Below, piece by piece: positions 4,746-46,343 of a stretch of 64,000 bases of DNA. This stretch comes from Dysidea avara (Eukaryota > Porifera > Demospongiae > Dictyoceratida > Dysideidae). The stretch is taken from NCBI RefSeq assembly GCF_963678975.1, contig NC_089277.1, forward strand, positions 22,351,440 through 22,415,439. Direction: 5' to 3'. Below the pieces are notes generated by a model, which was not told where the DNA came from, did not search any database, and saw only the letters and a list, made by a program, of their open reading frames with translations. Within the stretch, counting starts at the first letter, position 1; every line of letters begins with the position of its first letter. The translations under genes and the position numbers were made by a program.

Positions 4746-5006
4746 CAACTGCCTACAAGTAAACAAGGGATATAGCGTCATCAGCCCTTCGCGCCTTGTT
4801 CATCACCTGCCTTTAGCCAGAGCAAGGAATTTTCAGCATTGAAAGCTTCCATGGACTATTGTTTGACAATAACACTTAGTTTGAACTTTCTTCATCGCTG
4901 AATTTCAATGCAGTACAGTCAGTGACTATTGAAATTGGCCCCATTCAAAATGGCGTCCTAAAAGTGGGCGTGGCTTTGGATAGTGTCTATTACAATACAC
5001 GTATGG

Positions 5007-6553: not shown

Positions 6554-6644
6554 CGTATGGTTCGAAGTTTATGCCGTGGAGTTGAGACTAGTGTGGCAGC
6601 GTCAGAACATGGAGTCACACCCCGAGTACAGAGGTGATTATTAT

Positions 6645-7043: not shown

Positions 7044-7437
7044 ATTATGTATGCATGGTGGCAACATATACCCTATTACCTATGGTGGCAACTTGAACAC
7101 ATTCTCACAAAAAACTTACCTGCTATTTTTAAGTCTACTTCCGCCATATTTCAAGAGAGCAAGTTCGGTCTATCGGTGTTACAATCTTAAGTCACAATTG
7201 GCTAACTGGTAAAGCAGATGAACAAACAAACGCTACTTAATAAAATTTTCACACGCCTATTGTCTAGTTTTCTGAAGACGTCTCCCTCGTCTGATAAGCT
7301 GTGGTGCCGTGTTGAAATCTTATAGAGAACGGTACCCTTCAATATCTGATCATCACTTACTCTGTACGTTATATATATAAATTATTAATGAACACGTTTT
7401 AACAACACGTTGTTTTCTCTGTTCAACTTCGTATTAG

Positions 7438-8560
7438 GTGGACACTAATTGGAAATGCCGTTTAAGAGACCGAGTTGATGACTGGTGCTCAGACTGGGAG
7501 CACAGATTGTGTGCAAATATCAGCCAAAATAACTTACAGGTATTGGATGGTGGAACTGAGAATACTAATTGCCTTTCAGTTTCTATAGTCGTTGTCTTCC
7601 TGATGTACCAAAGGCCCTAGAAATGTATCAGATGTATTCCAAACTTGATTCCAAGTTTGAAAACAAATTTGATGGAGAATAAGCTTTACAAAGGGATTGG
7701 TCAACATGTTGTTAAGTGCTTTGAAGCAGCTAATTTGGCAGGTCTGGAAGTTACATGTAAAAAGTTACAAATCTTGGTTGAGGAACTTGCATCAAAAATT
7801 GGTCGTTTATCTCTTTCAAACAGCAACTTGCAGATGGAGATTGATAATTCTTCTGAATCTGTTACTGATTCATCTCCAATTGGACCTGCAACTATGTCTC
7901 CTCGTCCTAGTACCGCTATGGATATAATTGATCAGTTAGCTAGCTGATCGTGAAAGAAGGAAAAGGAATATAATTGTTTATAGTCTACCTGAGTCCTCTC
8001 CCAACAATAAGGGTGACAGTGATACATTTGCAGTGTTATGTTCTTCTGTGTACAATTCTTTGTTTACTATTACTAAATTTGTGCGTTTGGGAAAGAAAAT
8101 TCCTAACAAATGTTGACCATTATTATTATCCTTGCAAAAGGAAGAAGATAAACTTGAGCTACTTTCTCGCTCTTTCCTTCTACAACATAATGACTTTTAC
8201 AAGAATGTATTTTTAGCTCTAGACCGAACCAAGTTTGAAAGGGAGTAGCACAAGAAACTGGTTACAGAGCTCAGATACAGACGTTCGAAAGGTGAAACCG
8301 GTCTTGTAATTCATCATGGATCTATTATCACCAAAACCTCTACTAGAAATACCAATGTGTCACTTACCGGCAATGGTGCACCTGCGGATGCTCAGTCATC
8401 TGCTGCCAGGTACCGGATATACAAATGCTAAATGGCAAGACAGTTTTAAGAATGGACACCTATAAATTTTCCTCCACTATAAAGTTATGTGGAACTCCCT
8501 CCCCGCACTGTAATTAACTCCCCTACACTTTGTCAGTTTTGTAATATGATTGATACCTGT
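7438..8560 (+). pseudogene. Non-LTR retrotransposon remnant: ORF1-like protein plus RT tail (copy A)
   Basis: Frames join into a PHD-like segment (CSDWEHRLCANISQNN), a coiled-coil-like stretch (ASKIGRLSLSNSNLQMEID), then the ORF1 RNA-binding-like segment, and basic residues before STRNTNVS. It is followed near 8450 by MDTYKFSSTIKLWNS-like sequence typical of the C-terminus of CR1/L2-clade reverse transcriptases. Endonuclease and most of RT are absent, so it is an internally deleted element. The same structure with slightly better frames lies at 34236-35340. Several frameshifts; not functional. Confidence 0.62.
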
Positions 8561-9640
8561 GTGTTTACTGTGTTATCTCTCTCTCTGATTTCTGCACTGT
8601 ATTAAATATAATTATATTATATACCATATAGTAGAGGGGGAAATGTTGCAGTTTTTGGGGTTTCATTTATCCTTGAAATAGATGGAAATACACTCTAATA
8701 CATTTTGGGAGTGATTACAAAGCGAAAAAATTTTTAGCTTGAACATTGCTCAACCTCGATAAATTTACCCCTTGAAATATTTAGGCTATACACAAAATAC
8801 TCTAATACAGCAGTCACCTATAATAGAACAGTTACACGTGTATAGCTGTATGCTATAGCTAACAAAAACCAAATAATTTACAAATTAGGGATTCAAGCTG
8901 ATAAGGCCACTCAGGGTTATAGTTTTAGGATAGGGTTTAGCATTAAGGGGTTAGAAAATTGAAGAAAATTCATTGTTTCCCATTTCCGCCCACATGTAAA
9001 TCCTCTCCCACATGGTTTCATTCATTATTGCTTTTAACTGAACATTTTATTCATTATTTAGCTATGATATCAGTGATTTGTGTCAACAGTTGTACACAGG
9101 TAATAGCTAATATCTTACTGAGTCAGTAACCAGTGCAGCTTTTTTACTGTAATTCATGCTCTTAGTTTGTATTTGCTTGTCTCTTACAGCTACTTAGCTG
9201 GTGTGTGAGTCATATAAGTAAAAAAATTAGCAATAGTTAAAATGACTAATGAGCCACCCGCCTGCATGCATTTTTGAAATTAATCAGTGAAATGGGAAAC
9301 AGTGAATCAGCTTGGAGGTACCAATGTGGAATGATGGTAGCTAGTTATTACAGTATTACTATAATAGCTCGGTGGGAAAATCCCTTGAACAAACGGCTCT
9401 CATAGCAAAGATCATCAAATTGTAATAATAACATGCTAATGTAGGGATTTTCTCACAGAGCTGTGCTATAATACCATATCAGTCTAATGTACAGACCTCA
9501 AAATGATTGTAGTTTGTAACAGTATTAACTATAACTAGATTCTCATAAAATAACTGAGAGAGCACAAGCTACACAACAACTAGTACAAGCCTACTACAAC
9601 CACTGCTAAGGATTCATCACCTTTGTAGTATGCATCATGA
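8560..9640. other. Non-coding repeat-derived DNA in duplication copy A
   Basis: No gene seen. The segment 8790-9110 matches 35570-35890 of copy B, including ACTCTAATACAGCAGTCACC at 8801. The segment 9330-9475 resembles the foldback family seen at 27383-27616 (ATAGCTCGGTGGGAAAATCC ... GGGATTTTCTCACAGAGCTG) and is missing from copy B. Confidence 0.5.
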
Positions 9641-10440
9641 TCACTTAAGGAGGGAGATGTGCACATTAGGTTTGTATGTAATTTGTGTGATGTAACCACA
9701 TAATGTATGAATGTTTGTCCGTAATTGTTGATCGTTCACTTTCAACAAACCATATAGGAGGTCTATAGACACTCTTCCACTTCTAGTCTGAACTACAGAA
9801 AGGTTTTCATCTGAAACAGTAATAAAAGTTTCGTCAGGAATTTCTATTGGTGTTGGTATTGGATTGTCAACACTTGAAGCTGTTTCTTGATTGGCTAGAG
9901 GTGTCAAATCTCTTCTGTTTTGTCTGTAAAAATTGTAAGGTGTTTGGACCATGTAGGATCTGTGGGATAGTTTTTCTGTGATTACACCTTCTGTTTCAAT
10001 GTCTATTATCCAAACTGTCTCTCCTTTTTGCAAGGTCATTAAATCTTTCGCATGATGTCACTGATCAAGGCTATTTCTTTGTCTCTTTCTCCTTTTTCCT
10101 CGGTTTGTTGACATCAGGTAACTACATTCTCTAAAGGAGTAGAATGGTAAGCATGCAAGTATTACTAAATATAGGATATTACTTTTGTTTAACAGACCCT
10201 TTACTGTTCTGACAGCTCTTTCTGCTGCCCCGAGGCTTCAGGTAGTTTAGGCTGCTTGTAACATGTGTAAAACCGTATTGCTCAGAAAATTAATTGAACA
10301 ATGATGCTGAATATTGTGGACCATTATCTGAAATCACAGTTCCAGGAATGCCGTGACGAGCAAATATGTGTACTATGCTTTGTGATGTCATGGAAGGCAA
10401 CTTGGCAACCTCAAAGTAACAAGAGTAGTAATCAAAGGCA
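9641..10440 (-). pseudogene. Ty3/gypsy integrase fragment (copy A)
   Basis: On the minus strand from 10440: DYYSCYFEVAKLPSMTSQSI, then ISDNGPQYSASLFN (the D and DNGPQ regions of an integrase core), AERAVRTVKGLLNKS in another frame, and the C-terminal part KGETVWIIDIETEGVITEKL ... VQTRSGR. Frameshifts and a deletion (present in copy B around 36500) break it. It ends abruptly upstream at a hAT-like insertion (10441). Not related to the intact gypsy at 45409. Confidence 0.75.
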
Positions 10441-10690
10441 GGGGGACCATCCCCCCCCACTTTTATGGGCCAATGTTTGCAAGAAAAGATCGAGATACTC
10501 CAAGGCCAGGAAAACTTGATTAATTGTTTCTCATCCCCGCCCACATCCCTTTTTATCCCACCGCCTCTAATTTCATTATTGCTGTTATCAATCACGTGCA
10601 CACATATTTTGATGTTAAGAAGGCTGGCTATTTTTTTTTTTAATCAGCAGAACCCTCCAGGGGTATAGTGCTGATGTGCCAGTACAATTA
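10441..10690. mobile_element. Truncated hAT-like element end inserted in the integrase fragment (copy A)
   Basis: Directly after GTAGTAATC begins a G-rich end (AAAGGCAGGGGGACC), then GAGATACTCCAAGGCCAGG and a block (TTGTTTCTCATCCCCGCCCA) that is the reverse complement of 1865-1925. The equivalent in copy B is 36854-37075, where the whole insertion and its far end at 39279 are preserved. Confidence 0.5.
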
Positions 10691-10699
10691 CAATCAAAA

Positions 10700-11858
10700 A
10701 CAGTTAATAATTATTACATGATTAGTCCTAATTTTTGTTTAAATAATTCTACACAATTGGTTTCAATCGTATCATCACTCAGTTTATTCCATTTGGGTAC
10801 AGTTTTTAGTTAGTAAATTGTGTAGTATCTTATACAGTAAAACTAATCTTGCTTGTCTGTGATGTTCTTGAAGTGTTGGCCAATTTAATGATGTCAAAAT
10901 GTTGGTGATGCTATCTCTGTGGTCTCTTCTCCACGGTTTCAAAATGAGCAGCTCTATGCTGGACCATCTTAGTTGACTGATATAAGATTGGTGGTAAGGA
11001 TCCCATATTGGTGAACAGTACTCTAGAACAGGTATTACAAATTGTTTATATGCTAGTTCACGTAGGTGTTAGGGGCAGTGATGAAGATTTCTTTTTAAAA
11101 AGCCAATAGTTTTGTTTGCCTAATTACAAATGTAGTCTATGTGAGGTTTCCATGAGAGTTTGATGTAATTTGATTCCAAGATACAAGTGTTATTCTGTAA
11201 CTGCCAGTGGGATGCCATTCATTACATACGTGAACAAGCTCTTACTATGATGGTTTGAAACTTACATTACATTTGCTGATATTAAATGCTATTTGCCATT
11301 TGTCCGCCCATTTTGACAATGTTTTTAAGTCTTGCTGAAGTGATTGATGGTCAACTATACTATGGATAACTCTATAATTATATCAAGCAATCATCTGCAA
11401 AGAGTTTAATCTGGCTGCTAATACCTTCAGTTATGTGAACTTATGTCATTAATGTACAATAAAAAGAGGGTAGGACCCAAGACTGAACCTTGTGGTACTC
11501 CTTCACTAGGAGAAGAAAAGGAACCATTAATGACAACTTGTTGAGAACGATTGCTTTAAAAGGACTAACCATTTCAAAACCTTGCCTCAAATACCATAAA
11601 ATTCAATTTTAGCTGCTAGCAATCTTTTGTGCGGGACTTTATCGAAAGCCTTGGATAAATCTAGAATACCAACATCTACCTGGAGTTTGTTATTTAATGC
11701 TTTGGCAAAGTCATCAGTAACAGTAAGCAGCTGCGATTCGCAAGAATGCTTTGACCTAAAACCAAACTGACATGGAAGTATGGAACCAAAATGTCGTGTG
11801 TTTCCAAGTGCTTCATAATTTCACTTGTGAGCATATGTTCCATTACTCTGCAAATGAT
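10700..11858 (-). pseudogene. CR1-like reverse transcriptase fragment (copy A)
   Basis: Minus-strand frames carry MEHMLTSEIMKHLETHDILV, CESQLLL-like and LDLSKAFDKVPHKRLL-like sequence, FKPWRRDHRDSI and YSFLPRTVPLWNKLS-like C-terminal segments in the order expected for the RT domain and C-terminus of CR1/L2-clade elements. Many frameshifts. The upstream side is cut at 11858 by a deletion junction to the membrane-protein pseudogene. Partner: 37085-38920. Confidence 0.72.
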
Positions 11859-12621
11859 ACAATCTATGTAGTTCCAAGCACTTTCCAGCTTGTAATCTTC
11901 CAGGTGGATGAATTCTACCAAGGTAACGATAAGTGAACTGTAGAGCAAAATTTCTTCAAAAATTTGGGAATGTATTGGTATGGCTATGGTTGGACAACAC
12001 TTACAAAGTTTATTGCACAGTTCAGTAAATCCATCATTATTACCCCTTACATTAGTAAGTTCATCACTACGACCAAGAAATTGATTTATTCTTTGCCTAC
12101 AATCTCTTGCAAGCTGATAATTATCTTTAAGCAGCCAACAAGCACCAACTAAACCTTGCACAATTCCTATGATAAGGTAAACAGCAGCATTAGCCTTCCA
12201 ACCATCCTCAATAGTTTCTCTTATAAGATTATTGACAGAATAATTTGCCTGTACAACAAAAAAGCTAGAAGAGCTGTTTTGTATGCTATTCATAAACATA
12301 CATGTTCAGGCATTTCACTTAAGGAGAGATCTTCACAAGCATTTCTTATATTCTGTCTGATTGTTTTAATGTTCATTGATTTAGTGAAATTAGCCCTTCT
12401 TTCTGAATATTTGGATTAGCATTGAAATATTCATTACTGATTCCAGCAACTGCAGCAGTAGGGCTTTCCGGAAATCCAGCATCTGGAGCTTCAGGGATGC
12501 CCTCAATGTTCACTTCTGATGTTTGAAATCGTATAGATGGAAAATGAGGCAAAGTTACACTGGCTCTTCCACTGTGTGTATTTACTGAGACTACACTGCG
12601 AATACAACCTCTATTTGTCAT
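11859..12621 (-). pseudogene. 5' fragment of a multi-pass membrane protein gene (paralogue of 41433-42944)
   Basis: Residues 1-82 (12621-12373, starting MTNRGCIRSVVSV) and, after a frame change, residues about 115-248 of the intact gene are recognisable, with a few amino-acid changes. The coding sequence ends at ESAWNYIDC, where a ~3.6 kb deletion relative to copy B fuses it to reverse-transcriptase DNA; an open frame runs through the junction as IICRVMEHMLTSEIMKHLE. About 105 bp of upstream flank are conserved with the intact gene. The frameshift around 12370-12300 and loss of six membrane segments make it non-functional. Confidence 0.85.
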
Positions 12622-12727
12622 GCCTAACTCTTAATACTCTTTTATGTCTGTGATAAAATTAATGATGGAATTGCATTATATAGTAAATTTGTGTAAACAG
12701 TTGGTATTTCTCTGAATTGTAACACAT

Positions 12728-13495: not shown

Positions 13496-13709
13496 ATCAC
13501 TTCTTTTTGTATTTGTATACTGCAAAGCCGGCCTATGGCTGGCTTTGGGGCTTTTTTAACCCATGTGTTTTTTTATTTACCACAGGAAGAAGAAAAGAAC
13601 TTACAGAAGATTTTTAATACTTCAATTATTTTTGATTTTATTAGTAATTATACAAATTATATACATATATTTATTACATGCCCATTATTCCCCACGGGAT
13701 ATTTTTTAG

Positions 13710-15850
13710 CAGCTGATCTCTCTACTGGGTGACTTAAAATATAGCTGAACTATATACAGGATGGTTTCTTTGTAGCTGAACTCTCTACAAGGTGACCTCT
13801 TCTAGCTGATTTCTCTACAGGGTGATTTGTTTCTAGCTGAACTGTCTACAGGTTATTTGTTTGCAGCTAAACTCTCTACATCCATGGTGGTTTCTTTGTA
13901 GCTGAACTCTCTACATGATGGTTTCTTTTTAGCTGAACTCTCTACAAGGTGACTTCTTCTAGCTGAACTCTCCACAGGGTGATTTCTTTGTAGCTGAACT
14001 CTCTACATGATGGTTTCTTTGTAGCTGAACTCTCTACAAGGTGACTTCTTTTAGCTGATCCCGCTACAGGGTGATTTGTTTGCAGCTGAACTCTTTACGT
14101 GGTGATTTCTTTGTAGCTGAACTCTCTCCAAGGTGACCTCTTCTAGCTGATCTCTCTACAGGGTGATTTGTTTCTAGCTGAACTCTCTACATGTGATTTG
14201 TTTGCAGCTAAACTCTCTACATGGTGCTTTCTTTGTAGCTGAACTCTCTACATGATGGTTTCTTTGTAGCTGAACTCTCTACAAGGTAACTTCTTCTAGC
14301 TGATCCCTCTTACTGGGCGATTTGTTTGTAGTTGAAGTCTCTACATGGTAATTTGTTTGAGGCTGAACTCTCTACATGGCGGTTTCTTTGTAGCTGAACT
14401 CTCTACAAGGTGACTTTTTCTAGCTGAACTCTATACAGAGTGATTTGTTTGCAGCTGAACTCTCTGCATGATGGTTTCTTTGTAGCTGAACTCTCTATAA
14501 GGTGACCTCTTCTAGCTGAACTCTTTACATTGTGTCTAGTTTCTAGCTGATCTCTCTACAGGGTGATTTGTTTGCAGCTGAAATCTCTACAGGGTGATTT
14601 GCTTGTAGCTGAACTCCTTACATTGTGTCTAGTTTCTAGCTGATCTCTCTACAGGATGCTTTGTTTGTAGCTGATCTCTCTACAAGTTGATTTGTGTGTA
14701 GCTAATCTCTCTGCAGGTTAATTTGTTTGTAGCCGATCTCTCTACAGGGTAATTTGTTTGTAGCTGAACTATCTGTAAGGTGATTTGTTTGTATATACCC
14801 TGATCTCTCTGCAGGTTGATTTGTTTTAGCTGAACTTTCTACAGGGTGATTTGCTTGTAGCTGAACTCCTTACATTGTGTCTAGTTTCTAGCTGATCTCC
14901 ACAGGGTGATTTGTTTGTAGCTGATCTCTCTACAAGTTGATTTGTGTGTAGCTGATCTCTCTACAGGTTGATTTGTTTGTAACTGATCTCTCTACAGGGC
15001 AATTTGTTTGTAGCTGAACTCTCTATAAGGTGATTTGATCTCTCTGCAGGTTGATTTGTTTGTAGCTGAACTCTCTAAAGGGTGATTTGCTTGTAGCTGA
15101 ACTCCTTACATTGTGTCTAGTTTCTAGCTGATCTCTCTACAGGGTGATTTGTTTCTAGCTGATCTCTCTACAAGTTGATTTGTGTGTAGCTGATCTCTCT
15201 GCAAGTTGATTTGTTTGTAGTCGATCTCTCTACAGGGTAATTTGTTTGTAGCTGATCTCTCTGCAGGTTGATTTGTTTTAGCTGAACTCTCTACAGGGTG
15301 ATTTGTTTCTAGCTTATCTCTCTACAGGTTGATTTGTGTGTAACTGATCTCTCTACAAGCTGATTTGTTTGTAGCTGATCTCTCTGCAGGTTGATTTGTT
15401 TCTAGCTGATCTCTCTACAAGTTGATTTGTTTGTTGCTGATCACTCTAAAGATTGATTTGTTTGTAGCTGAACTCTCTGCAAAGTGTTTTGTTTGTAGCT
15501 GATCTCTCTACAGGGTAATTTGTTTGTAGCTGAACTCTCTGCACAGTGAGCTGAATTCTCTAGAGAGTGATTTAATTGTAGGTGAACTCTCTACAGGGTG
15601 CATGACTTGTTTATAGCTGAACTCTCTTCAGTGTGACTTGTAATGTTCTGAATCTCTACAGTGATATAATTGTAGCTTAACTCTCCACAGGGTGACTTGC
15701 TTCTTGCTGAACTGTCTATAAGATTAACTGTTTGCAGCTGAAGTCCCTACAGAATAACTTGTAATGTAATAGAATTCTATAATGGAGTAAATAAATTAGC
15801 TGAATGCTCTATTAGGGTGACTGTTCTATTAGAGTATCTCGATCTCGCAT
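13710..15850. repeat. 31-bp minisatellite (satellite array), about 2.1 kb
   Basis: Roughly 60-70 imperfect copies of GTAGCTGAACTCTCTACAGG plus GTGATTTGTTT. The left half has mostly GAACTCTCTACA; the right half is dominated by a GATCTCTCTACA variant and shows higher-order structure (the unit variant CTCCTTACATTGTGTCTAG recurs near 14610, 14862 and 15098). The array decays at its right end into TGACTGTTCTATTAGAGTAT, a motif dispersed through the window. Confidence 0.95.
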
Positions 15851-22756: not shown

Positions 22757-24492
22757 CTAAATTGAAAATAAGCAGCACCTTCCTTCATCAGTTTCAGGAT
22801 ATCCATAATTATACATGTGAAAATAGAGGAAGTGAAAACTTTTGAATAAACATTCAAATGTACTCTTTGCTAGTCCATGCTGAATAGTGTGTAGCCTATC
22901 AACATTTTCTTTCTTGGTGCAGACTAACAAATCAGTGACAAATTGTCTTTCTGGAGCATTTGTAATTATTATAGCACCAACACGAGCCACAGCTTTACCA
23001 TCCATTGTGTAGCTGTTAAAACTAAACAAGTCAGTTATGTTTCCATTGGTAGGATCTTCAACAACATAAGTAGTCACATAACTTGGTACAGATGGACATA
23101 AAAAGTAGTGTGAGAATTCTTCTTCACTTTGGAACACGTGATGAATTTCAAATTGTGAAGCATGTTGATTGGTAAGGATTAATGCTTTAGGAACATCTTT
23201 AAATACCATCTTTCTTAAGCCAGGTGTCTTGGGAGTATCATAGGGTAGAGCAGGATAGTGATATGTTTCATTATATGAAAAATAGTAATGCCATACAGTG
23301 AACACAACTATGGGTTTAATAATACATGGTTCACGATTTGGAAATACCAGTTCAGAAATCCCATCTTGTTTAGACACTCTTGTAATTTCTTTAAGCAACT
23401 CACTCATCATACGGGATACCAGATCACCCTTACAACCTGATAATTCATAGCTGAAGAACATAACTGGAAGAACAATTCCACCAAAACTAATAAGTTGTGG
23501 TGCATACAAAGCTATGGCTATTGTGTTCCCACTGAAGAAGCCTGCAATATAACTACTTTTATAGCTAGGGTGTGAACAGATCCACTGGAAGTCCTTTGTA
23601 GCATTTTTAAACTGCTTTGCATTTTCAGAATTTAGCCAAGTCCATTTGTGCCCTTTTGGTAACGGAAACAGATCTTCTCTTGTACGATCTTTTAATGGCT
23701 GTTCAATAGGACCTATTTCTTTCACTTCCTGTCCACGTAATACAACTGGCAGACTTTCCCATTTTACTACACCAGGAATGGATAAATGACTGATCGCTTG
23801 TGATTTAAGGTGAGATCTCTTCTTGCTCAATGTCAAGTGAGCATTATAAGCATGATCAACATCAATCCGCCACACAATGAACAATGATCCCACCATAATC
23901 TTATAGCATGTGAGCGTACCACTACCTGATTGGAGCAATTCAGTTTCTAAATAGAAGCGATGCTTGTGAAGCTCGGAAATTGTGTATTGTCTAGGATCTA
24001 CATCAAGCTGCTCCTCAATTAGAAGATGACTGAACTTCTTCAGAGATATCACAGGGACATATGCTGGTACTATTTCACTCAATTTCATACCATAAAAAGT
24101 TTTCTTGAAATTTTGTAATGTTTCATGTGCTGTAGGTATCATAGAAGCAGTTACCATGGCTTCCATCATTCTGGTATCTAAGAAGTTCCAATGTTGGGCT
24201 TTTGTCAAAGTGGTACAAAGAGTTTGAAATGAGTTTACTTCTTCAATTTTAGGTACAATTTCACCAGATATACAAGCTTTTGGTGATAAAGCCTTCTCTA
24301 AACATGCATCTTGAAGAATGTTGAACTTACAACCAGAATTTTCAATCATTGTTTTAATACCTGAAGAGAGCCTCGAGAATGCATAGTCAATGTCTTCCTC
24401 TGGGGAAAATGTTAAAACAGCTGGTATATATTTTGGTGGCAAAGCAACAGCTTGTGAACATGTACTTTTAGCAGACTGAGTTGACAATAAAC
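22757..24492 (-). CDS. Last exon of a Death-domain protein: unknown middle domain plus N-myristoyltransferase-like domain
   Basis: The exon begins at an AG acceptor (24494-24493) and joins the Death exon (25736-26032) in perfect phase: a lone G from that exon plus GT here makes a glycine codon. It stays open for 578 codons to the stop. Numbering residues from the in-frame ATG at 24502, about 70-258 form a domain I do not recognise (WNFLDTRMMEAMVTASMIP; HLSIPGVVKWESLP). Residues about 259-581 match N-myristoyltransferase: EIGPIEQPL...LPKGHKWTWL, SELLKEITRV, then TPKTPGLRKMVFKDVP, FQSEEEFSHYF, TTYVVEDPTNGNITDLFSF, and a C-terminus (YFHMYNYGYPETDEG...) ending where NMT ends. Canonical acyl-CoA features are missing: the acidic loop (YVEDDDxMFRF in family members) is deleted, and the NFLCVHKKLRSKRxAP block reads MFFSYELSGCKGDLVS. 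Likely an inactive or altered NMT fold used for binding; cytosolic, no signal peptide. Possibly Death-adaptor signalling (inference). Confidence 0.85.
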
Positions 24493-24619
24493 CTACATAC
24501 ATATAAAGTACATTTTAAGGAAGATAATTACATGTATTTCTATATTATGTATAAAATATTGCATAATTCCTGATGTACACCACAGTAGCAAATACTGTAC
24601 ATACGTACGTGTTGGTACA

Positions 24620-25450
24620 ACCCACCGATTTTCAGCTTCTTCCCATAAGCGGTTTACCCTGTAGGCGTGACAACATACTGGTGTTATTTTTCGTGAATAA
24701 TTGCTAATAACTCCTTCACTATTTATCGTATTTTCAGCCAAACATGGTATCAAGATGCGCCTTTATACTAGTGCTGAAACGATCATTCGGTTATTAGACT
24801 AATCGGTCGGCAAGACACTATTTGATTCGTTAACACACTATTCGAATAATCGTTAGCACTTTGTACACTGTATTCAGATGGAAAAGCCAGCCTTGAAACT
24901 TAAGATTGTGAATGAAGTGGTATTTTTATGCTGTAAAAATTCTATTTTAGAAAAGATAGAAATAGCTCTTAGGCTTTACCTTACTCCCTAACGAAAGATT
25001 ACAGTACTTATTCAATAGAAGTATAAGCTTAAAGAATAATCGAATATTCGGTCGTTTTGTTCACAACTATTCGAATAGTAAAAATTGCTATTCGTTTCAG
25101 CACTACTTTATACCCCCCTTCTGTGTGCCAAATTTCAAGGCAATCGAATATGGCATTTGCGTTTTATGGCAGTTTTTGTAAGTGTGCGAAAAGGAGAAGA
25201 AAATGAAGGGAAAAAAACACGATGAAATAAAGCCATTTTTTGAAGTCGCATATCTCAGAAACGCTTGAAGAGGTTTCACTCAAATTTGTTATGTGGAGTA
25301 CTGAAGTTGGCGGGCATGTCCACAGCAATAATTGTCTTGTTTCATAAAGGCAACACAGAGCTACAGAGGTGCGAAAATCACGTTTTCATATACTCATGGG
25401 TGTTGCGTGCTGGCTTCCTTGGCTGCACGACACACTACCGTGTGTCTTGA
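24620..25450. repeat. Second copy of the 15851-16640 repeat, inside the Death-NMT intron
   Basis: AAGCGGTTTACCCTGTAGGC, CTGTGTGCCAAATTTCAAGG, GCGTTTTATGGCAGTTTTTG and CGACACACTACCGTGTGTCT occur in the same order as at 16150-16625. It is split by the hAT MITE at 24769-25105 and lies in intron 24493-25735. Confidence 0.8.
24769..25105. mobile_element. 337-bp hAT MITE with 8-bp duplication CTTTATAC
   Basis: Inverted termini TAGTGCTGAAACGA / TCGTTTCAGCACTA, subterminal TTATTCGAATA-type repeats, flanked by CTTTATAC at 24761-24768 and 25106-25113. The repeat copy at 16260-16290 is uninterrupted at the equivalent place. Confidence 0.93.
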
Positions 25451-25735
25451 TCATTCATCTCTTGTTTCACTACTTTTCATTGTATAGATCCCTACTTCAT
25501 TTTTTAATTAACAACTTTTTAAAACACTATTACATCAACCCCTACTTCCTATTGAAATTTTTATTTTTTAATAGCTATATATAGCTACATGTACTGTAGT
25601 TAAATGATCTACAACACTTTATCTACCATTGATACTTTATAATATAAAAAGATGTTGATGTTTTGTGAAATATACATACAGGTGTAGGTAACTTAACTTT
25701 GCTACTAACAGACATTCCCTTAGTTACACACTTAC

Positions 25736-26032
25736 CTTCACTAATTGATTTCAGTTTTTGCTCAATTTCATTGGCAAGTCCATCCAATTCAATGCTAGGC
25801 TGCCTCAAAGCTTGTATCAGCTGATTCCATGATGCTGAGGGTTGTTTCTTAAGCCACAATTGAAACATTTGTGTACAACATGTACTCACATCCTTGGGAT
25901 TGTTGCTCTGGATTTCATCCAACTTGCCACAGTCGTCATCATCAAGTAGTTCAATTCCCAAATCATACCACTTTGAACTGACAGACTTCTTAACTAATCT
26001 GTTAAGTAGTTTGAGGGTGGGACTATTCTTTC
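25736..26032 (-). CDS. Exon encoding a Death domain
   Basis: An open frame of about 99 codons between a TATAG acceptor (26034-26033) and a G|GTAAGT donor (25735). It reads PTLKLLNRLVKKSVSSKWYD, LGIELLDDDDCGKLDEIQ, CTQMFQLWLKKQPSASWNQL and LIQALRQPSIELDGLA, the six-helix pattern of a Death domain (W-x-x-LG, then M-x-x-W, then SW-x-x-L-x-x-AL). It ends one base into a codon, which fits the downstream NMT-like exon exactly. Death domains mediate homotypic assembly of signalling complexes (established); partners here are unknown. An alternative acceptor (GGAAAG, start 26027) would give phase 0. Confidence 0.82.
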
Positions 26033-33783: not shown

Positions 33784-34235
33784 GCCTAGTGTGGCAACGT
33801 CAGAGCGTGGAGTCACACCCCAAGCGCAGAGGTGATTATTATATGCGTGGTGGCAACATAGATAATATACCCTATTATCTATGTTGGCACTGAACTTGAA
33901 CACATTCTCACAAAAAACTTACCTGCTATTTTTAAATCGACCCCCGCCATATTTCAAAAGAGCAAGTTCGGTCTATCGGTGTTACAATCTTAAGTCACAA
34001 TTGGCTAACTGGTAAAGCAGATGAACAAACCTACTTAATAAAATTTTCACACGCCTCAGTATTGTCTGAAGACGCTATGCTCTTACTCATGTTACTCGTG
34101 GTGGTGGTGGTGGTGGTGATAGTTTGATAAGCTGTGGTGCCGTGGTGAAATCTTATAGAGAACGGTACCCTTCAAGATTTGACCATCACTTACTCTGTAC
34201 GCTTGTTTTCTCTGTTCAACTTCGTATTGGGTGAG

Positions 34236-35340
34236 CACTAATTGGAAATGACGTTTAAAAGGCCCAGTTGTTGATGACTGTATGTGACTGGCGCTCAAAC
34301 TGGGAACACAGATTGTGTGCAAATATCAGCCAAAATAACTTACAGGTATTGGATGGTGGAACTGAGAATATTGCCTTTTTCTGTAGTCGTTGTCTTCCTG
34401 ATGTTCCAAAGGCCCTAGAAATGTATCGGATGTATTCCAAACTTGATTCCGAGTTTGAAAACAAATTTCAATTAATTAATGGAGAATAAGCTTTACAAAG
34501 GGATTGGTCAACATGTTTTGAAGCAGCTAATTTGGCAGGTCTGGAAGTTACATGTAAAAAGTTACTGACAAATCTTGCCGAGGAACTTACATCAAAAATT
34601 GGTAATTTATCTCTTTCAAACAGCAACTTGCAGATGGAGATTGATAATGCTTCTGAATCTCTTACTGATTCATCTCCAATTGGACCTGCAACTATGTTCC
34701 TCATCCTAGTACCGCTATGGATATAATTGATGAGTTAACTGATCGTGAAAGAAGGAAGAGGAATATAATCGTTTATAATCTATCTGAGTCCTCTCCCAAC
34801 AATAAGGCTGACAGTGATGCATTTGCAGTGTTGTGTTCTTCAGTGTACAATTCTTCGTTACTATTACTAAATCTGTGTGTTTGGGAAAGAAAAATCCTAA
34901 CAAACATTGACCATTATTATTATCCTTGCAAAAGGAAGAAGATAAACTTGAGCTACTTTCTCGCTCTTTCCTTCTACATTGTAATGACTTTTACAAGAAT
35001 GTATTTTAAGCTCCAGACCTAACCAAGTTTGAAAGGGAGAAGCACAAGAAATTGGTTACAGAGCTCAGTTACAGACATTCGAAAGGTGAAACCGGTCTTT
35101 TAGTTCATCGTGGATCTATTTTCACCTAAACCTCTACTAGAAATACCAATGTGTTGCTTGCCGGCAATGTTGCACCTGCGGGTGCTCAGTCATCCGCTGC
35201 CACATACCGGATATACAAATGCTAAATGGCAGGACAGCTTTAAGAATGGACTCCTATAAATTTCCCTCCACTGTTAAGTTATGGAACTCCCTCCCCCCAC
35301 TGTAATTGACTCCCCTACACTTCATCAGTAATATGATTGA
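34236..35340 (+). pseudogene. Non-LTR retrotransposon remnant: ORF1-like protein plus RT tail (copy B)
   Basis: Better preserved than copy A: WEHRLCANISQNNLQVLDGG then FFCSRCLPDVPKALEMY (PHD-like Cys/His pattern), a coiled-coil-like SKIGNLSLSNSNLQMEIDNA, then RERRKRNIIVYNLSESSP (start of the RNA-binding-like domain of CR1-type ORF1), and SKGETGLLVHRG. It ends with MDSYKFPSTVKLWNSLPP, an RT C-terminal motif. Endonuclease and RT core are missing. Frameshifts occur throughout. Confidence 0.65.
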
Positions 35341-35999
35341 TACTTGTGTTAAATCTCTTTGATTTCTGCACAGTAATAAATATATATTATATACTGTATA
35401 GCCTAAATATTTTGAGGGGGAATATGTTCACTGATTTTGTGGTTTTGGAGGTTTCATTTATCCTTGAAATATTTAATATTTACACTCTAAAACATTTTGC
35501 GAGTGTTTACAAATCCGCAAAAAAAAAATTTTTTTAGCCTGAACACTGCTCAACCTCGAAATATTTAGGCTATATATATACACAAGATACTCTAATACAG
35601 CAGTCACCTATAATAGGACAGTTACACATGTATATATAGCTGTGTGCTATAGCCAACAAAAACCAAACAATTACAAATTAGGGATCCAAACTGATAAGGC
35701 CACTCCAAGAAACAGGGTTAGGGTTTTAGGATAGGGCTAGGGGGTTAGAAAATTGAAGAAAAATCGTTTCCCACATGTAAATCCTCTCCCACATGGTTTC
35801 ATTCATTATTGCTTTTAACCGAACATTTTATTCATTATTATTATTATGATAGTGTCAGTGATTTGTGTCAACAGCTGGACACAGGTAATAGTATTAACTC
35901 TATCACTATAACTAGATTCTCATAAGATAACTGAGAGCACAAACTACACAACAACTAGTACAAGCCTACTACAATCACTGCTAAGGATTCATCACCTTT

Positions 36000-36853
36000 G
36001 TAGTATGTATCATACTCACTTAAGGAGGGAGATGTGCACATTAGGTTTGTATGTAATTGGTGTGATATGAATGTTTGTTCATGATTGTTGATCATTCACT
36101 TTCAACAAACCATATAGGAGGACTCTTCCACTTCTAGACTGAACTACAGAAAGGTTTTCATCTGAAACAGTAATAAAAGTTTCGTCAGGAATTTCTATTG
36201 GTGTTGGTATTGGATTGTCAACACTTGAAGCTGTTTCTTGATTGGCTAGAGGTATCATATCTCTTCTAAGGTGTTTGGACCATGTAGGATCTGTGGGATA
36301 GTTTTTCTGTGATTACACCTTCTGCTTCAATATCAATTATCAAAACTGTCTCTCCTTTTGGCAAGGTAATTAAATCTTTTGCACGGTGTCACTGATCAAA
36401 GCTACTTCTTTCTCATGGATTTCTCCTTTTTCCTTGGTTTGTTGACATCAGGTAACTATAACTTTAACTCCTTTGGGATGGCAGGAAAAGCAGCACATAG
36501 CTGTCTCCCCATCTGTAGTTCAGCTGGGCTATAACCATTCTCTAAAGGAGTAGAATGGTAAGCAAGCATTGCTAAATATAGGATATTACTTTTGTTTAAC
36601 AGACACTTTACTGTTCTGACAGCTCTTTCTGCTACATCATTGGCTTAGGGGTAGTTTGGGCTTCTTGTAACATGTGTAACCATATTGCTCAGAAAATTAC
36701 TTGAACAATGATGCTGAATATTGTGGACCATTATCTGAAATCACAGTTTCAGGAATGCCATGACGAGCAAATATTGACAGGAGATATTGTACTATGTTTT
36801 GTGATGTCATGGAAGGCAACTTGGTAACCTCAATGTAACAAAAGTACTAATCA
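36000..36853 (-). pseudogene. Ty3/gypsy integrase, C-terminal part (copy B)
   Basis: Minus strand: IEVTKLPSMTSQ, FARHGIPETVISDNGPQYSA, AYHSTPLENGYSPAELQMGR, then the C-terminal domain near 36390-36010. The reading breaks at 36853, exactly inside the conserved DYYSRY region, and resumes at 39280. Confidence 0.75.
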
Positions 36854-37084
36854 TAGGCGGTGGAGATGGGGGACCCCCCCCCCACTTTTATGAGCCAATG
36901 TTTGCAATGAGATACTCTAAGGCCAGCCAAACTCGATTAATTGTTTCTCATCTCCGCCTGCATCCCTTTTTACCCCACCACCTCTAATTTCATTATTACT
37001 GTTATCAATCACGTGCACACATATTTTGATGTTAAGAAGGCTGGCTATTTTTTTTTTTATCAGCCGAACCCTCCAGGGGTATAG

Positions 37085-38920
37085 TGCTGATGTACTAGTA
37101 CAATTACAATCAAAAATAGTTAATAATTATTACACAATTAGTTCTAATTTTTGTTTAAATAATTCTACACAGTTGGTTTCAATCATATATCATCACTCAG
37201 TTTATTCCATTAGGGTACAGTTCTTGGAAGGAAGGAGTATTTACATAAGTCAATTCTGGGTTGGTAAGGCACAAGTTTAAGATTGTGTGAAAAATGGGTC
37301 CTTGATACAGATGATCTTATTGGAAGATATCAGCAAGGTATAGTTGGTAAATTGTGCAGTATCTTATACAGTAAAACTAATCTTGCTTGTCTGCAACGTT
37401 CTTGAAGTGTTGGCCAATTTAATGATGTCAAGATGTTGGTGATACTATCTCTATGGTCTCTTCTCCACGGTTTCCCTGTCACAATACGAGCAGCTTTATG
37501 CTGGACCATCTCAAGTTGATTGATATAAGATTGGTAGTAAGGATCCCATATTGGTGAACACTGAACAGTACTCTAGAACAGGTATTACAAATTGTTTATA
37601 TGCTAGTTCACATAAGTGTTTGGGGCAGTGATGAAAATTTCTTTTTAAAAAGCCAATAGTTTTGTTTGCCTTATTACAAAAATAGTCTATGTGAGGTTTC
37701 CATGAGAGTTTGTGATGTAATTTGATTCCAAGATACAAGTGTTGTTTTGTAACTGCCAGTGGGATGACATTCATTACATACGTGAACAAGCTCTTACTAT
37801 GATGGTTCAAAACTTGCATTATCTTACATTTACTGATATTAAATGCCATTTGCCATATATTTTGTCTGCCCACTTTGACAATGTTGTTAAGTCTTGCTGA
37901 AGTGATTAATGGTCAACTGTACTATGGATAACTCTATAATATCAAACAATCATCTGCAAAGAGTTTAATCTGGCTACCAATACCTTCAGTTATGTCGTTA
38001 ATGTAAATAAAAAGAGGGTAGGACCCAAGACTGAACCTTGAGGTACTCCTGATACGACTTCACAAGGAGAAGAAAAGGAACCATTAATGAAAACTTGTTG
38101 AGAACAATTGCTTAAAAGGACTCTAATCATTTCAAAACCTTGCCTCCAATACCATAAAATTCAATTTTAGCTAGCATTCTTTTGTGTGGGACTTTATCGA
38201 AAGCCTTGGATAAATCTAATTATTATTATTATTATTATTAATTAACACTTTATATACAGTGACCAGCACTGAAGGTCTGACATCAACATGTGCTGCAGCC
38301 TTAGGATTACCTAACCTAATTGCAAGGACTTAGACTTAATGACTTGACTTGGTGACTTGACTTATTATACCAACATCTACTTGAAGTTTGTTATTTAATG
38401 CTTTGGCAAAGTCATCAGTAACAGTAAGCAGCTGCTATTCACAAGAATGCTTTGATCTAAAACCAAACTGACATGCATGGAACTAAAATGTCATGTGTTT
38501 CCAAGTGTTTCATAATTTCATTTGTGAGTATATGTTTCATTACTTTGCATATGATTGAAGTTAGTGATGCTGGTTGGTAATTTTGTGGGCTAGTTCTTTT
38601 GCCAGATTTAAAGATCGGAGTGACATATAAATAGTGCTGATTTCCACTATGATTGTTGAAAGAGATGGGTTAACATAGGAGTAACTTCAATAGCAACATG
38701 TTTAGAACATGTCCAGAGATATATAGCATCAGGGCTAGGAGATTTGTAAGGATTCAATTCAGATAAGAGTTTGAAAACACCATTTGGACAAATATCAATA
38801 TTATTTATAGATGGAAACGAGGATACTGGCATTTCAGGGATTCTTTCCAAATCTTCCCTTGTAAATACTGACTTAAACTGATTATTTTGCAGCACAGCAA
38901 ACATCTCTTGCACCTCAGAA
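37085..38920 (-). pseudogene. CR1-like reverse transcriptase (copy B)
   Basis: In order on the minus strand: NNQFKSVFTREDLERIPEMP, ELNPYKSPSPDAI, MKHLETHDILVP, SGVPQGSVLGPTLF (RT motif, around 38030), KWHLISVNVR/MAFNISKCKIMQ, then FLKRNFHHCPKHLCELAYKQ, LEYCSVF and YSFLPRTVPLWNKLSDD. This is the core and C-terminus of a CR1/L2-clade element, with many frameshifts and no endonuclease. Confidence 0.75.
38217..38365 (-). mobile_element. Short LINE/SINE 3' tail insertion (ATT repeat)
   Basis: Absent from copy A, where AAATCTAG runs straight into AATACCAACATC. It begins with eight ATT units (an AAT-type 3' tail on the minus strand), followed by ~120 bp including CTGCAGCCTTAGGATTACC. Consistent with a severely 5'-truncated retroposon inserted into the RT fragment. 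Confidence 0.6.
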
Positions 38921-39279
38921 ACGGTGGTAAAACATAAGTAATAGCGTGTAAAAGGCTTTAGCTAATCTTTATAGTAACAGACAGCCTGATTTAGAGCATT
39001 TTCTTTAATGAAAAATGACCTCCCGTCTGCATGGAAATCCGTGGATGAGAAACAAGTAGTCAAGTTTGCCTGCCTAATAGAACAGTCCGGATCTAGATAC
39101 TCTAATAGAGCAGTCACAGTATTCAGAGAAGCAGTGTAGCAAGCCACTTAGCTACGTATGTGTAGTTATAAATAAGGAGATATAGTTGGTGGAGGGCAGC
39201 TATTACCTTTTTTTTCTTTTGGTCTTCAGCTTACAGCTGGCCTGGCCCTCTTGCTCTTTGGCCTGCTCTGCCACCCCTG

Positions 39280-39600
39280 GTAGTAATCTATGACTAGTAA
39301 ATAGCATGTCAGTCCCTACCTTTTTCCATGATTGGTTTGGAAATGGTGATGGTGACAATGGCTCCACATGGTTCAACCTGTGTTTAGAGCAATCAATGCA
39401 TTGTGAAACCTTTCCCTCAATGTCCTTCTTTACGACGCTGAATCTTTAGCTCGCTGTTGGCATTCTGTGAAGCCTTGATGATCAGAATGTAATTTTTCAA
39501 TGACCTCAGGATTGAGAGAGGAAGGAATAATCAGTCGATTGCCTCTTAGGATAATGCCATTGTTAACACTCAGCTCATTTTAACAGGAATGTCGTACTTC
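39280..39600 (-). pseudogene. Ty3/gypsy integrase, zinc-binding N-terminal part
   Basis: Minus strand: GNRLIIPSSLNPEVIEKLHS, HQGFTECQQRAKDS, VKKDIEGKVSQCIDCS (HHCC zinc-binding pattern) and SWKKVGTD followed in frame by YLLVIDYY. It stops at the insertion boundary at 39279 and continues at 36853. Confidence 0.75.
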
Positions 39601-39649
39601 AGCATACCATGCCACTTAGGTCTTCCTAGTCGGCCATCCATTTTGACAG

Positions 39650-40017
39650 TATAGTTTAAGTTTCTGAAAGCCATGTAAACACAGTTGAGAAGTATCTGAT
39701 TAAAATATTTGTCTTCTTGTCATCTTTTAGTGTGGCTATGCCAATGTTCTCTTGTCTTCTGCTTTCAATGTAAGACCATAAAGGTTTATGATTACTGTCA
39801 TGCTCTGGACTAACAAGCTGCTGTAAGTATCGGTTATAAGCTTTGCAACTTTCGTTCTGCGATAACTTTTTGAGATTACGATAAGTTGACCACTCTGATG
39901 GAAGTCCAGTAGATCTTGCAATTGCTCTATTGTATGCTCATTTCTTCCTGTTTGAAATACACTAAATGTGAGCATTAATCCAAGAAGCTTTAAAATTGTT
40001 TTACTACTTACCAGCAC
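39650..40017 (-). pseudogene. Fragment of a second CR1-like element (endonuclease-RT linker)
   Basis: Frames read AYNRAIARSTGLPSEWSTYR, LKKLSQNESCKAYNRYLQ, KPLWSYIESRRQENIGIATL and YFSTVFTW, the segment preceding the RT core in CR1/jockey-type polyproteins. It overlaps in position-in-protein with 38913, so it is from a different element. Confidence 0.6.
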
Positions 40018-40356
40018 TAACTACATTTTTATCGCTTGGATCCCTGCTATACTTATTCATTTTTAGCATATAGCTAAAGCTTTATGCCAGTGGACAAAGA
40101 GTAGTGGCTCCTAAACCAAGGATAGAAAAGAATTAATCTGCTTATATTGTATGCAATTTACATCTGTTGTACTTGTAATTGCATAATTATGCTGGCTAGT
40201 AGCTATAAAAAAAGTAGCAAACAGTGTACTATATACTGAGCTATTATAATAATATTATACAACATGCAGCAATGTATATTGAAGAAGTTATATTGAACTG
40301 TATTGTATAGCAATACAATGAGTTTGAATAATAGGATTATACATGGTAACCAAGTA

Positions 40357-40576
40357 CAGTGGTCCCTCGATTATCCGAACTCATTGGACCCTGAGGGTGT
40401 TCAGATAATCGAAAAGTTTGGATAATAGAATCCCATTCATTTATATACAGAGCCCTGTACAAATACTCTAATAGAATATACACTTTTAGACAAAATGCTT
40501 TAATAGAACGGTCACCTCCATAGTTTGGATAATCGAAATTCGGATAATCAAAGGCCAGATAATTGAGGGACCACTG
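40357..40576. mobile_element. 220-bp pogo/Tigger-like MITE, TA duplication
   Basis: Perfectly inverted CAGTGGTCCCTCGATTATCC type left terminus and GATAATTGAGGGACCACTG-type right terminus, flanked by TA (40355-40356, 40577-40578). Internal ACTCTAATAGAAT and TTTAATAGAACGGTCAC. Confidence 0.93.
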
Positions 40577-40784
40577 TAACAAGGTAACTTACATTCAAAT
40601 ATTTTATCTATAAAGAAACAATCAGGTGCAATATGAGTAACTGAAAAATGAGCCAAAATGTTTCAAATTTTATGCCACAGTGGGAGCAGTACAAGTTTGG
40701 GTAGCACGATTATCTGTGGTAACCAAGCGACAAGGTAACTGCGCATGCCAGCCAAACGCATTGATTTATACAATAAAAAATACA

Positions 40785-40990
40785 TTTAGAGCTACCTTAC
40801 AGTTACTAAGTTAAGGCTATTGTGGGAGCTAAGAAATACATTTAGAGCTACCTTACAGTTACTAAGTTATGGCTATTGTGGGAGCAGTACAAATAAAATG
40901 ATTACATGTGGTAATTCCAAGTAACAAGGTAACTGCCAGCCAAATGTAGCGATTTGTCAGTTAACTAAAGAAAATGCATTTACAAGTTTA
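40785..40990. repeat. Local tandem duplication, ~65 bp
   Basis: TACATTTAGAGCTACCTTAC through GGCTATTGTGGGAGC occurs twice in succession (40790-40825 onward and 40845 onward), within a longer imperfect ~180-bp repeat marked by CAAGGTAACTG(CGCATG)CCAGCC. Confidence 0.7.
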
Positions 40991-41432
40991 TGCCACAGTA
41001 TTTAGAAGTAGTATGAGTTTGAGTAGCAAGATTATAATTATGTGGTAACCAAATAACAGGGCTTAACTGTTGTCTAATTGATTTCACATAGCTAGACCGC
41101 TATTTCAGCACAGTGACTAGCAACTTTTCAAATGTCTCAGTACTGTGTTAGTATTGTTCACTGATCATGAGTTTCTGTTTAACAACATGCTGCATAGCTA
41201 CTTGGCAAAGGGTCTTTGTTTGTCAGTTTGTCATTGTGTCTTGTATGACCAGACCACCATTTCAATGCAGAGGCTTACGGTATATATTGATTAGAAATTA
41301 TAAGTGCTTTGTGCTGAAAAGATGGGAACTCATAACCTGTTTTGTTCCTGGTTTTGCAACTTTCTATTCTGTATAATTATGGTACAAATAAGTGATTACA
41401 TAATTACACATACTACTTGCAACAATTGTTCA

Positions 41433-42944
41433 CTAATAATGCACTTCTTGTGCTTCCACTGCTTTAGTTGAAAATACCATATTTGTAATGTTTGTTTGAC
41501 AATACTTTAGCCTTCTATACCCTTTGACAAATGGCAAACAGCCAAGGCATGGCTGTACAATAATAAAGAGAATGAAAGCAATGGTTTGTATGTTTGCAGC
41601 TAGGAAAAGTATCAATGTCATACTGTAACAAGTGTAGTAGACTGCGCTCAAGGTTTTATCATCTGAAAGAGTATTGTCATAGTCAAATCCACTTGTAGTA
41701 ACAGCAAATGCAATAAATGTTAGGAACAAAGTAACCATTATTGTCCAAGCACTTGGATCAAATGCATATCCAATCCATTTATCTCTGTCTGTCATGCCTT
41801 CAACATCAACGTTTCTATGAGTATTTTGTGGGTCGCGATTTCTCAAATGTATTAGAGGCTGCCATATCCAATATTGATTAATGATAAAATATGTAGCGAC
41901 AGACAGAAAGGGGATTAAAATTCCACAGAATATAGCAACCCATGTGAAAGGATGAATTTGGTACTGCCTTCGTGTGTTATCTGCAATCAGTCTGAGTGTA
42001 ATGCATCCTATCATTGACATCTGCATCAAAACTAGAACTGTGGCAAATATAGGTGTTAGCCTCAACGGAGTGTAGTATCTATAAGTCTGCATTTGAGAAA
42101 CTTTTTTCAGCAAAATGTTTTTCCGACCTCTTAGCCATATAACATAATAGACTCTCGGGACAATTGCTTCTGTAATTACAGTGAAGCCCAGTATAACACA
42201 GTCTATGTAGTTCCAAGCACTTTCCAGCCTGTAATCTTCCAGGTGGATGAATTCTACCAAGGTAACGATAAGTGAACTGTAAAGCAAAATTTCTTCAAAA
42301 ATTCGGAAAAGTACTGGTATGGCTATGGTTGGACAACACTTACACATTTTATTGCACTGTTCAGTTAATCCATCATGGTTACCCCTTACGTTAGTAAGTT
42401 CATCACTACGACCAAGAAATTGATTTATTCCTTGCCTACAATCTCTTGCAAGCCGATAAGTATCTTTAAGCAGCCAACATGCACCAACTAAACCTAGCAC
42501 AATTCCTATGATAAGGTAAATAGCAGCATTAGCATTCCAACCATCCTCAATAGTTTCTCTTATAAGATTAATGATAGAATAGATTGCCTGTACAACAAAA
42601 AAAATTAGAAGAGCTGTTTTGTATGTTATTCGTGAACATATATGTTCAGGCATTTCACTTGAGAGATCTTCCCAAACATTTCTTATATCCTGTCTCATTG
42701 ATTTCAGTGAAATTAGCCCTTCTTTCTGAATATTTGGATTAGCATTGAAATGTTCATTACTGAAGCCACCAATTGCAGCAGTAGGGCTTTCCGGAAATCC
42801 AGCATCTGGAGCTTCAGGAATGCCCTCGATGTTCGCTTCTGATGTTTGAAATCGTATAGATGGAAAATGAGGCAAAGTTACACTGGCTCTTCCATTGTGT
42901 GTACTTACTGAGACTACACTGCGAATACTACTTCTATTTGTCAT
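41433..42944 (-). CDS. Intact single-exon multi-pass membrane protein, 503 residues, family unknown
   Basis: Starts at ATG 42944 (MTNRSSIRSVVSVSTHNG) and stays open to 41433. About 105 N-terminal residues are polar and Ser/Pro-rich, with no signal peptide. Hydrophobic segments lie near residues 109-127, 139-159, 209-231, 247-270, 294-319, 333-356, 398-418 and 436-465: about eight membrane spans, N-terminus probably cytoplasmic. Cys-rich CNKMCKCCP precedes span 3, and charged loops (LRGRKNILLKK, DVEGMTDRDKW) separate spans. No Walker, pore or receptor motif is recognised; a channel, transporter or receptor role would be guesswork. The upstream flank and first ~248 codons were duplicated at 11859-12727, where the copy decayed. 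Lack of introns could mean retroposition, but conserved flanks make segmental duplication the origin of the second copy. Confidence 0.85.
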   Translation of the reverse strand: MTNRSSIRSVVSVSTHNGRASVTLPHFPSIRFQTSEANIEGIPEAPDAGFPESPTAAIGGFSNEHFNANPNIQKEGLISLKSMRQDIRNVWEDLSSEMPEHICSRITYKTALLIFFVVQAIYSIINLIRETIEDGWNANAAIYLIIGIVLGLVGACWLLKDTYRLARDCRQGINQFLGRSDELTNVRGNHDGLTEQCNKMCKCCPTIAIPVLFRIFEEILLYSSLIVTLVEFIHLEDYRLESAWNYIDCVILGFTVITEAIVPRVYYVIWLRGRKNILLKKVSQMQTYRYYTPLRLTPIFATVLVLMQMSMIGCITLRLIADNTRRQYQIHPFTWVAIFCGILIPFLSVATYFIINQYWIWQPLIHLRNRDPQNTHRNVDVEGMTDRDKWIGYAFDPSAWTIMVTLFLTFIAFAVTTSGFDYDNTLSDDKTLSAVYYTCYSMTLILFLAANIQTIAFILFIIVQPCLGCLPFVKGYRRLKYCQTNITNMVFSTKAVEAQEVHY

Positions 42945-43052
42945 GCCTAACTCTTAATACTCTTCATATGTCTGTGATAAAAGTAATGATGGAATTGCAT
43001 TATATAGTAAACTGGTGTAAACAGTTGGTATTTCTCTGAATTGTAACACATG

Positions 43053-45553: not shown

Positions 45554-46343
45554 CAGGACTTGGTTGAAGTCTGTGGCGGAGTCTATTCACATGAACAACC
45601 TTGGATGCAGTACCATTAGAGATCTCCATAACAAGTGGTCCTTTCACTGCTGTTATAGTCCATTTACCATCCCAGCGAGGGTCTAACTTCCGTGCTGTGG
45701 GTACCGATAGCCACACATGATCTCCAACTGTAAAGTGCCGTGTTAGTGAGTGCTTGTTATAGTTAATTCTTTTTCTGCTGGCCGATTCTACAAGATTTGC
45801 TTCCACAAAATCACACATTTCAGCAAGTTTTGCTTGCAGGTGAGATGGATATGAAGCAGTATCAAAAGAGTTGAGCTGTTCAAAAGGAATTGACTTTGGG
45901 GCTCTTCCAAACATCAGCTCAAAGGGAGAATATCCAGTCGAAGAATGTATGGCTGTGCGGTACGCATATAGCACTAGTGGAAGGTATGTTTCCCATTCTT
46001 GCTTCACTTGAACATATGAGCGCAACATTTGTAATAATGATCAATTAAATCTTTCAACCACCCCATCACCATGCGGGTGGTACGCAGTAGTATGGGACTT
46101 GCTGGTTCCAAACGCATTGAGAGTTTCTCTGAAAAGAAGACTTTCAAAATTACACCCTTGGTCTGAGTGAAGGACCTCTGGGATGCCTAGTGTACAGAAT
46201 ATCTTGGTAACAGCTGAAACGATTCGAGCAGCAGTTTGATCTGGCATTGGAACTACTTCCACCCACTTTGTGAAATAGTCTTGTAAAACAAGGAGGTAGC
46301 GGTTATTGTTTAATGACACAGGTACCTCCAGAACAGCAACCAT
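45549..46343 (-). pseudogene. Ty3/gypsy integrase core and C-terminal domain
   Basis: 46343-46041: LQDYFTKWVEVVPMPDQTA, LHSDQGCNFES, HPHGDGVVERFN (D, D and E of the catalytic triad). A frame change follows, then 46028-45549: YLPLVLYAYRTAIHSSTGYS, FELMFGRAPKSIP and LDPRWDGKWTITAVKGPLVM (GPY/F-type C-terminal module), VNRLRHRLQPSPV. Confidence 0.9.

Follow-up and report, generated by a model that had tools for sequence, protein, structure and literature searches.

A Death domain joined to a predicted N-myristoyltransferase pseudoenzyme in an expanded gene family of the sponge Dysidea avara

A 64,000-nucleotide stretch of the Dysidea avara genome (NC_089277.1, positions 22,351,440 to 22,415,439; hereafter the window), located on contig C6 of the 551-Mb assembly, was analysed for a gene that places a Death domain ahead of an N-myristoyltransferase (NMT)-like domain. 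The gene encodes a Death domain, a middle region made of a six-helix bundle and an alpha/beta unit, and a C-terminal domain with the NMT fold. The C-terminal domain was apparently without the elements for myristoyl transfer and is a predicted pseudoenzyme. In addition, the protein is one member of a sponge family that has expanded to dozens of loci, a membership not recognised in the first-pass annotation of this DNA.

Gene structure and domain architecture

The gene was assigned to three exons with the following features.

33923..33950, minus strand: exon 1; start codon, 9 codons in total (MAGVDLKIA) plus 1 base, donor GTAAG; matches the N-terminus of NCBI D. avara protein P0001
25736..26032, minus strand: exon 2, Death domain; Pfam PF00531 on the joined protein; homologous Death exons lie upstream of paralogous NMT-like exons
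25848..25889, minus strand: in-frame GT...AG stretch of 42 nucleotides inside exon 2; absent from NCBI isoform X2
22757..24492, minus strand: exon 3; 2 bases, 577 codons and stop in a single open frame; six-helix bundle, alpha/beta unit and NMT-like domain
24086..24391, minus strand: six-helix bundle, exon 3 residues 34-135; death-fold-like (DED-like) by structure only
23777..24043, minus strand: beta-alpha-beta-beta-alpha-beta unit, exon 3 residues 150-238; from the secondary structure of the model
22760..23776, minus strand: NMT-fold (pseudo-NMT) domain, exon 3 residues 239-577; last residue aligns with Q496 of HsNMT1

Exons 2 and 3 were both open, and the canonical donor and acceptor gave an in-frame join. 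This agreed with the NCBI model P0001 and with the earlier claim that the Death exon and the 578-codon exon are joined in phase. Exon 1, which sits 7.9 kb upstream of the Death exon, was a part of the gene overlooked by that claim. The three-exon join gave 686 amino acids, and P0001 (isoform X2, 672 amino acids) was identical to it minus the 42-nucleotide stretch. Removal of this stretch takes away 14 Death-domain residues, and no Pfam Death match was found for P0001 at E up to 1. Skipping the stretch would break the Death domain, and its omission may be either regulatory splicing or an artefact of the gene model.

Profile search of the full-length joined protein placed the Death domain (PF00531) at 25.8 bits, against a gathering cut-off of 22.6. 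NMT_C and Death were the only Pfam matches at E up to 1, with no match to NACHT or LRR. The AlphaFold2 model of the exon 3 product had a mean pLDDT of 87.8, and the C-terminal domain combined sequence homology to NMT with the double-GNAT NMT fold, as had been anticipated. The Death and NMT-fold architecture was confirmed.

The middle region was not considered in the first-pass annotation. In the predicted model, the bundle resembled the DED of FADD in fold. None of 11 members matched DED, CARD or PYD profiles (Pfam, E up to 10, HMMER filters on), and Foldseek with the middle region alone gave no significant match, the alpha/beta unit being of low confidence in that model. Mean pairwise identity was 60% over residues 20-235, compared with 34% for the NMT N half and 51% for the other NMT half. 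The bundle and alpha/beta unit, not the NMT part, are the best conserved portion of the family.

Loss of NMT functional elements

The C-terminal domain shared with NMT (PF01233 and PF02799) the double-GNAT fold and a collinear sequence almost to the C-terminus. In contrast, the Ab loop, the acceptor loop and the RSKR..AP block were missing, an N-terminal Death domain and middle region were added, and the NMT-like part was encoded by one exon, whereas the canonical D. avara gene has several. Functional elements were counted in 119 aligned proteins with HsNMT1 numbering and NMT2 letters. Loop columns were insert columns, where gaps count better than letters. The protein search gave 166 matches, and the best 120 of them represent the nearest homologues of the window protein.

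The Ab loop at 180-185 (YVEDDD) was absent from the window protein and, at each position, from at least 117 of the 119 homologues; as a whole (180-186), it was absent from at least 113. The acceptor loop (308-321) was absent from all 119. This loop, together with Y420, D471 and G472, was taken to comprise acceptor-peptide or functional positions in NMT. Y420 was kept in 11 proteins, D471 in 7 and G472 in 7, and the window protein had R, F and H at these positions. The RSKR..AP block (255-261), presumably the site at the coenzyme A (CoA) phosphates, read L V S R M M S in the window protein. Its residues were kept rarely (R255 in 3 proteins, S256 in 18, K257 in 0, R258 in 11, A260 in 8 and P261 in 0), T282 was kept in 7, and N480 was kept in 117. 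Residue 577, the last of exon 3, aligned with position 496, which we assume to be the free C-terminal carboxylate of NMT (Q496). Yet several paralogues (P0076, L016-L019) extended beyond this point, and such extra residues would not fit a C-terminal carboxylate catalyst.

The earlier interpretation was therefore upheld in two parts, the architecture and the loss of catalytic and cofactor features, the latter by the missing Ab and acceptor loops and by K257 and P261, found in none of the 119 proteins. It did not hold for the proposed binding of N-terminal glycine or myristoylated peptides. This ligand idea was left without support because the loops and residues facing the peptide and CoA were those that had been lost.

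Gene family, selection and other features of the window

Genome matches (n = 77) comprised 38 rows and 3 merged pairs, giving 41 loci with the middle region and NMT; 26 rows without NMT were counted apart, and 7 fragment or NMT-only rows were excluded from the Death-proximity count. Many of the 41 loci were clustered on C3, C4, C6 and C9. In-frame stops were found in 5 of them (L014, L015, L027 and two merged pairs) and a late start in 2 (L021 and C8:10390769). Death exon positions were taken from the best 150 of 854 candidates, and the Death-linked counts below are lower bounds. At least 19 of the 41 loci had a window-type Death exon upstream of them, on the same strand and no more than 30 kb away. 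Of the controls, same-strand downstream gave 4 of 41, opposite-strand upstream 0 of 41 and opposite-strand downstream 2 of 41. Within 15 kb, 16 loci had the upstream same-strand exon, compared with 2, 0 and 0 in the controls.

The Death exon and the NMT-like exon might instead be neighbouring genes merged by a gene-model artefact. The join is known here from genomic sequence and gene models, and the NCBI model P0004, from paralogue L003, begins without Death. However, this explanation was extremely improbable. Splice phase and splice sites fitted a join, and among the 19 loci closest to the window, 18 had Death then NMT on the same strand (30 kb). The junction GAAG-GTAAG / TAG-GTT (hyphens mark the splice points), in phase 1, was at the same place in L001, L007, L008 and L009, and L016 had phase-compatible sites; the comparison covered these five loci, with both exons within one locus. 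In addition, NCBI models P0001 and P0005 place Death ahead of NMT, with P0005 over the Pfam cut-off at 26.5 bits. P0009 held only the second half of the Death domain (16.0 bits, under the cut-off). P0014 began in the second half of Death and gave no Pfam match, with tblastn similarity to Death exons.

The middle region was also found without an NMT match at 26 or more places in the genome. An upstream Death exon accompanied these NMT-less exons in 10 of 26 cases at 30 kb and 16 of 26 at 50 kb, whereas none of the three controls gave a single case among the 26. In L037, L038, L039 and L040, the middle region, which matched no Pfam family, stood without NMT beside CARD-like or coiled-coil frames. 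The canonical NMT was a separate multi-exon gene (C3:773913-775676, in L042) with canonical motifs, its exons carrying KLVDIQFSHIPRNMT, SYYNLPST, NALDLMENK and DGHLHYYLYNF. Of the 48 NMT_C places found in the genome, 46 were outside this gene. One single-exon copy of 681 amino acids (L041:516-2558; C1, ~63389142-63391157) kept VHKKYGGKR and was the strongest NMT match among the scanned copies (NMT_C 102.5 bits, NMT 96.2 bits). Judged from its sequence, L041 is the most enzyme-like member and may be useful as an intermediate.

No relative was named outside Dysidea avara among the best 120 of the 166 protein matches, most of the database relatives being predictions that begin inside exon 3. Bacterial and archaeal contigs gave 166 pattern matches and viral contigs 47, none of them a relative. 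The middle-region protein search, with short proteins selected by length, gave 61 matches, all close family relatives by identity and with no new architecture. The Death-part search matched P0001 and P0005 only. In the open-licence literature covered, no Death-NMT protein and no NMT pseudoenzyme was found. The D. avara genome paper gives a count of 128 DEATH genes; a term search of its main text did not find 'myristoyl', and the parts covered held no Death-NMT class (PMC12909245).

For selection analysis, the 26 of 30 loci with frames of at least 540 codons were used, and the tree was built from these 26 with L041 and L043 added. In the tree of 28 D. avara proteins, the window protein fell in a clade of 17 rows (support 100/100), of which 16 are Death-linked. 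The H.KY..KR motif at the CoA-phosphate loop was absent from all 17 rows of this clade and from all of the 120 listed homologues. The sister clade (10 rows, 100/99) kept the motif in 8 of 10 rows, and long-branched L041 retained both the motif and a portion of the acceptor loop. Apparently the acceptor elements were lost from the copies, and in the Death-linked clade the CoA motif went as well; we infer this order.

The ratio of nonsynonymous (dN) to synonymous (dS) substitution rates, omega, was summarised over 40 pairs with dS of 0.1-0.9, after exclusion of 3 pairs with dS under 0.1. Omega was 0.21-0.52 in all 40 pairs, with a median of 0.38, and the family is under purifying selection. No positive selection was found in these pairs. 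Regional medians were 0.27 for the bundle, 0.33 for the alpha/beta unit and 0.42 for each NMT half, and both NMT halves stayed under 0.73 across the 40 pairs. The 40 pairs are not independent of one another, and in 31 of them omega was higher in the NMT N half than in the bundle. For L001/L003, the bundle gave a dS of 0.10 and the NMT halves 1.2-1.4. In some pairs of L020, L022, L023 and L025, the alpha/beta unit had dS values of 0.09-0.14, against 0.25-0.85 for the other parts. Our reading of these mosaics is probable gene conversion.

Other features of the window included a second copy of exon 1.

7108..7135, minus strand: second copy of exon 1 (MAEVDLKIA...), in a segmental duplication

This copy may open a neighbouring gene that extends beyond the window. 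The duplication (7066-12727 / 33865-43051; 85-92% identity, in pieces) includes the first exon of the Death-NMT gene together with a portion of an open reading frame for a multi-pass membrane protein (41433-42953, 11694-12305), which was TRP-like by eye with no Pfam match. An inverted repeat at 5006-5661 / 5898-6554 (~657 bp, 97.7% identical, spacer 236 bp) is perhaps a recent foldback element. Self-comparison detected a satellite-like tandem array of ~2 kb at 13701-15753. Pfam matches were reverse transcriptase, RNase H and integrase zinc-binding at 46306-47972, YqaJ-like at 58661-59119, THAP/DDE transposase at 59241-60674 and a QRICH1-domain open reading frame at 734-1192. Rfam (gathering threshold) and tRNA scans of the window gave no matches.

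Proposed function and significance

It was nearly an even call that this is a death-fold signalling protein, in which a Death domain and a death-fold-like bundle with its alpha/beta unit are combined with an NMT-fold domain as the interaction or sensor part. A ligand or partner at the pseudo-NMT would cluster or release the Death and death-fold-like domains, and these would recruit downstream adaptors or caspases. Death (by family) and the bundle (by fold only) would be the assembly modules, and their control by the pseudo-NMT is modelled on other sensors with a death-fold N-terminus. Relay through death-fold assembly can reasonably be inferred. Death adaptors and DED, CARD and PYD proteins such as FADD share the Death domain over the Pfam cut-off and, in the predicted model, the FADD-DED-like second bundle. 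Unlike them, the sponge protein has a C-terminal pseudo-NMT and a second bundle without a DED, CARD or PYD sequence match. As a guess, the preferred use would be sensing of microbes or self damage, since the clustering of paralogues, the conserved middle, the weak conservation of the NMT N half and the dS mosaics are reminiscent of multigene families of the immune type.

Two results weighed against the preferred reading. Median dN was similar in the bundle (0.28) and the NMT halves (0.27, 0.28), and some C9 pairs showed more change in the bundle than in NMT. With dN of the NMT halves no higher than that of the bundle, the NMT domain looked less likely to be specially variable. This result would also fit an NMT fold kept simply as an inherited scaffold that binds no ligand and serves, for instance, to dimerise a Death adaptor. 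Conservation is highest in the middle region, which occurs without NMT too, and the NMT N half is the least conserved by the identities above. However, the constraint on the NMT halves (median omega and upper bound given above) argued against a mere scaffold, which was judged unlikely.

Coupling of lipidation or acyl-CoA state to Death signalling was also considered, with the domain binding canonical NMT, its partners or acyl-CoA as a regulatory pseudoenzyme. The separate canonical gene and the H.KY..KR motif kept in the sister clade and L041 would favour it, but the loss of this motif throughout the window clade and the listed homologues made it quite unlikely. The first-pass annotation had proposed a decoy or guard, in which the pseudo-NMT imitates NMT or a complex of NMT, and microbial factors that act on lipidation trigger the Death domain by touching it. 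An NMT fold held under purifying selection while its catalytic elements were lost is consistent with this proposal. In addition, a study of D. avara found lower levels of a transcript labelled glycylpeptide N-tetradecanoyltransferase at 5 h in sponges exposed to A. aerophoba symbionts than in those given seawater microbes (PMC11229196). The label would suit either a family member or the canonical NMT, so the transcript may or may not bear on the proposal. With the acceptor and Ab loops gone, the substrate site is not mimicked, and no effector is known here. A decoy was very unlikely.

Within the preferred reading of a death-fold signalling protein, a more specific suggestion was tentative and rather doubtful. 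The family may be a sponge receptor or adaptor family parallel to NOD-like receptors (NLRs), with the dead NMT fold recognising and the Death and death-fold-like tandem giving the output. Older copies could bind acyl-CoA, and the emptied pocket of the Death-linked clade could have turned to other ligands. The NLRD class (DEATH-NACHT-LRR) of the same sponge shares the N-terminal Death domain and the expansion into a multigene family, in the portion of the genome paper covered (PMC12909245). In contrast, neither NACHT nor LRR was matched in the joined protein.

If the signalling reading is true, the pseudo-NMT would be a new sensor fold in death-domain signalling of an early animal lineage. We know of no earlier NMT pseudoenzyme family. 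Labels of 'glycylpeptide N-tetradecanoyltransferase' in sponge transcriptomes may denote signalling proteins and not the enzyme, and they need caution because the canonical gene holds very few of the NMT_C places found in the genome. Some paralogues have the CoA-loop motif and others lack it, which makes a stepwise conversion from enzyme to pseudoenzyme testable.
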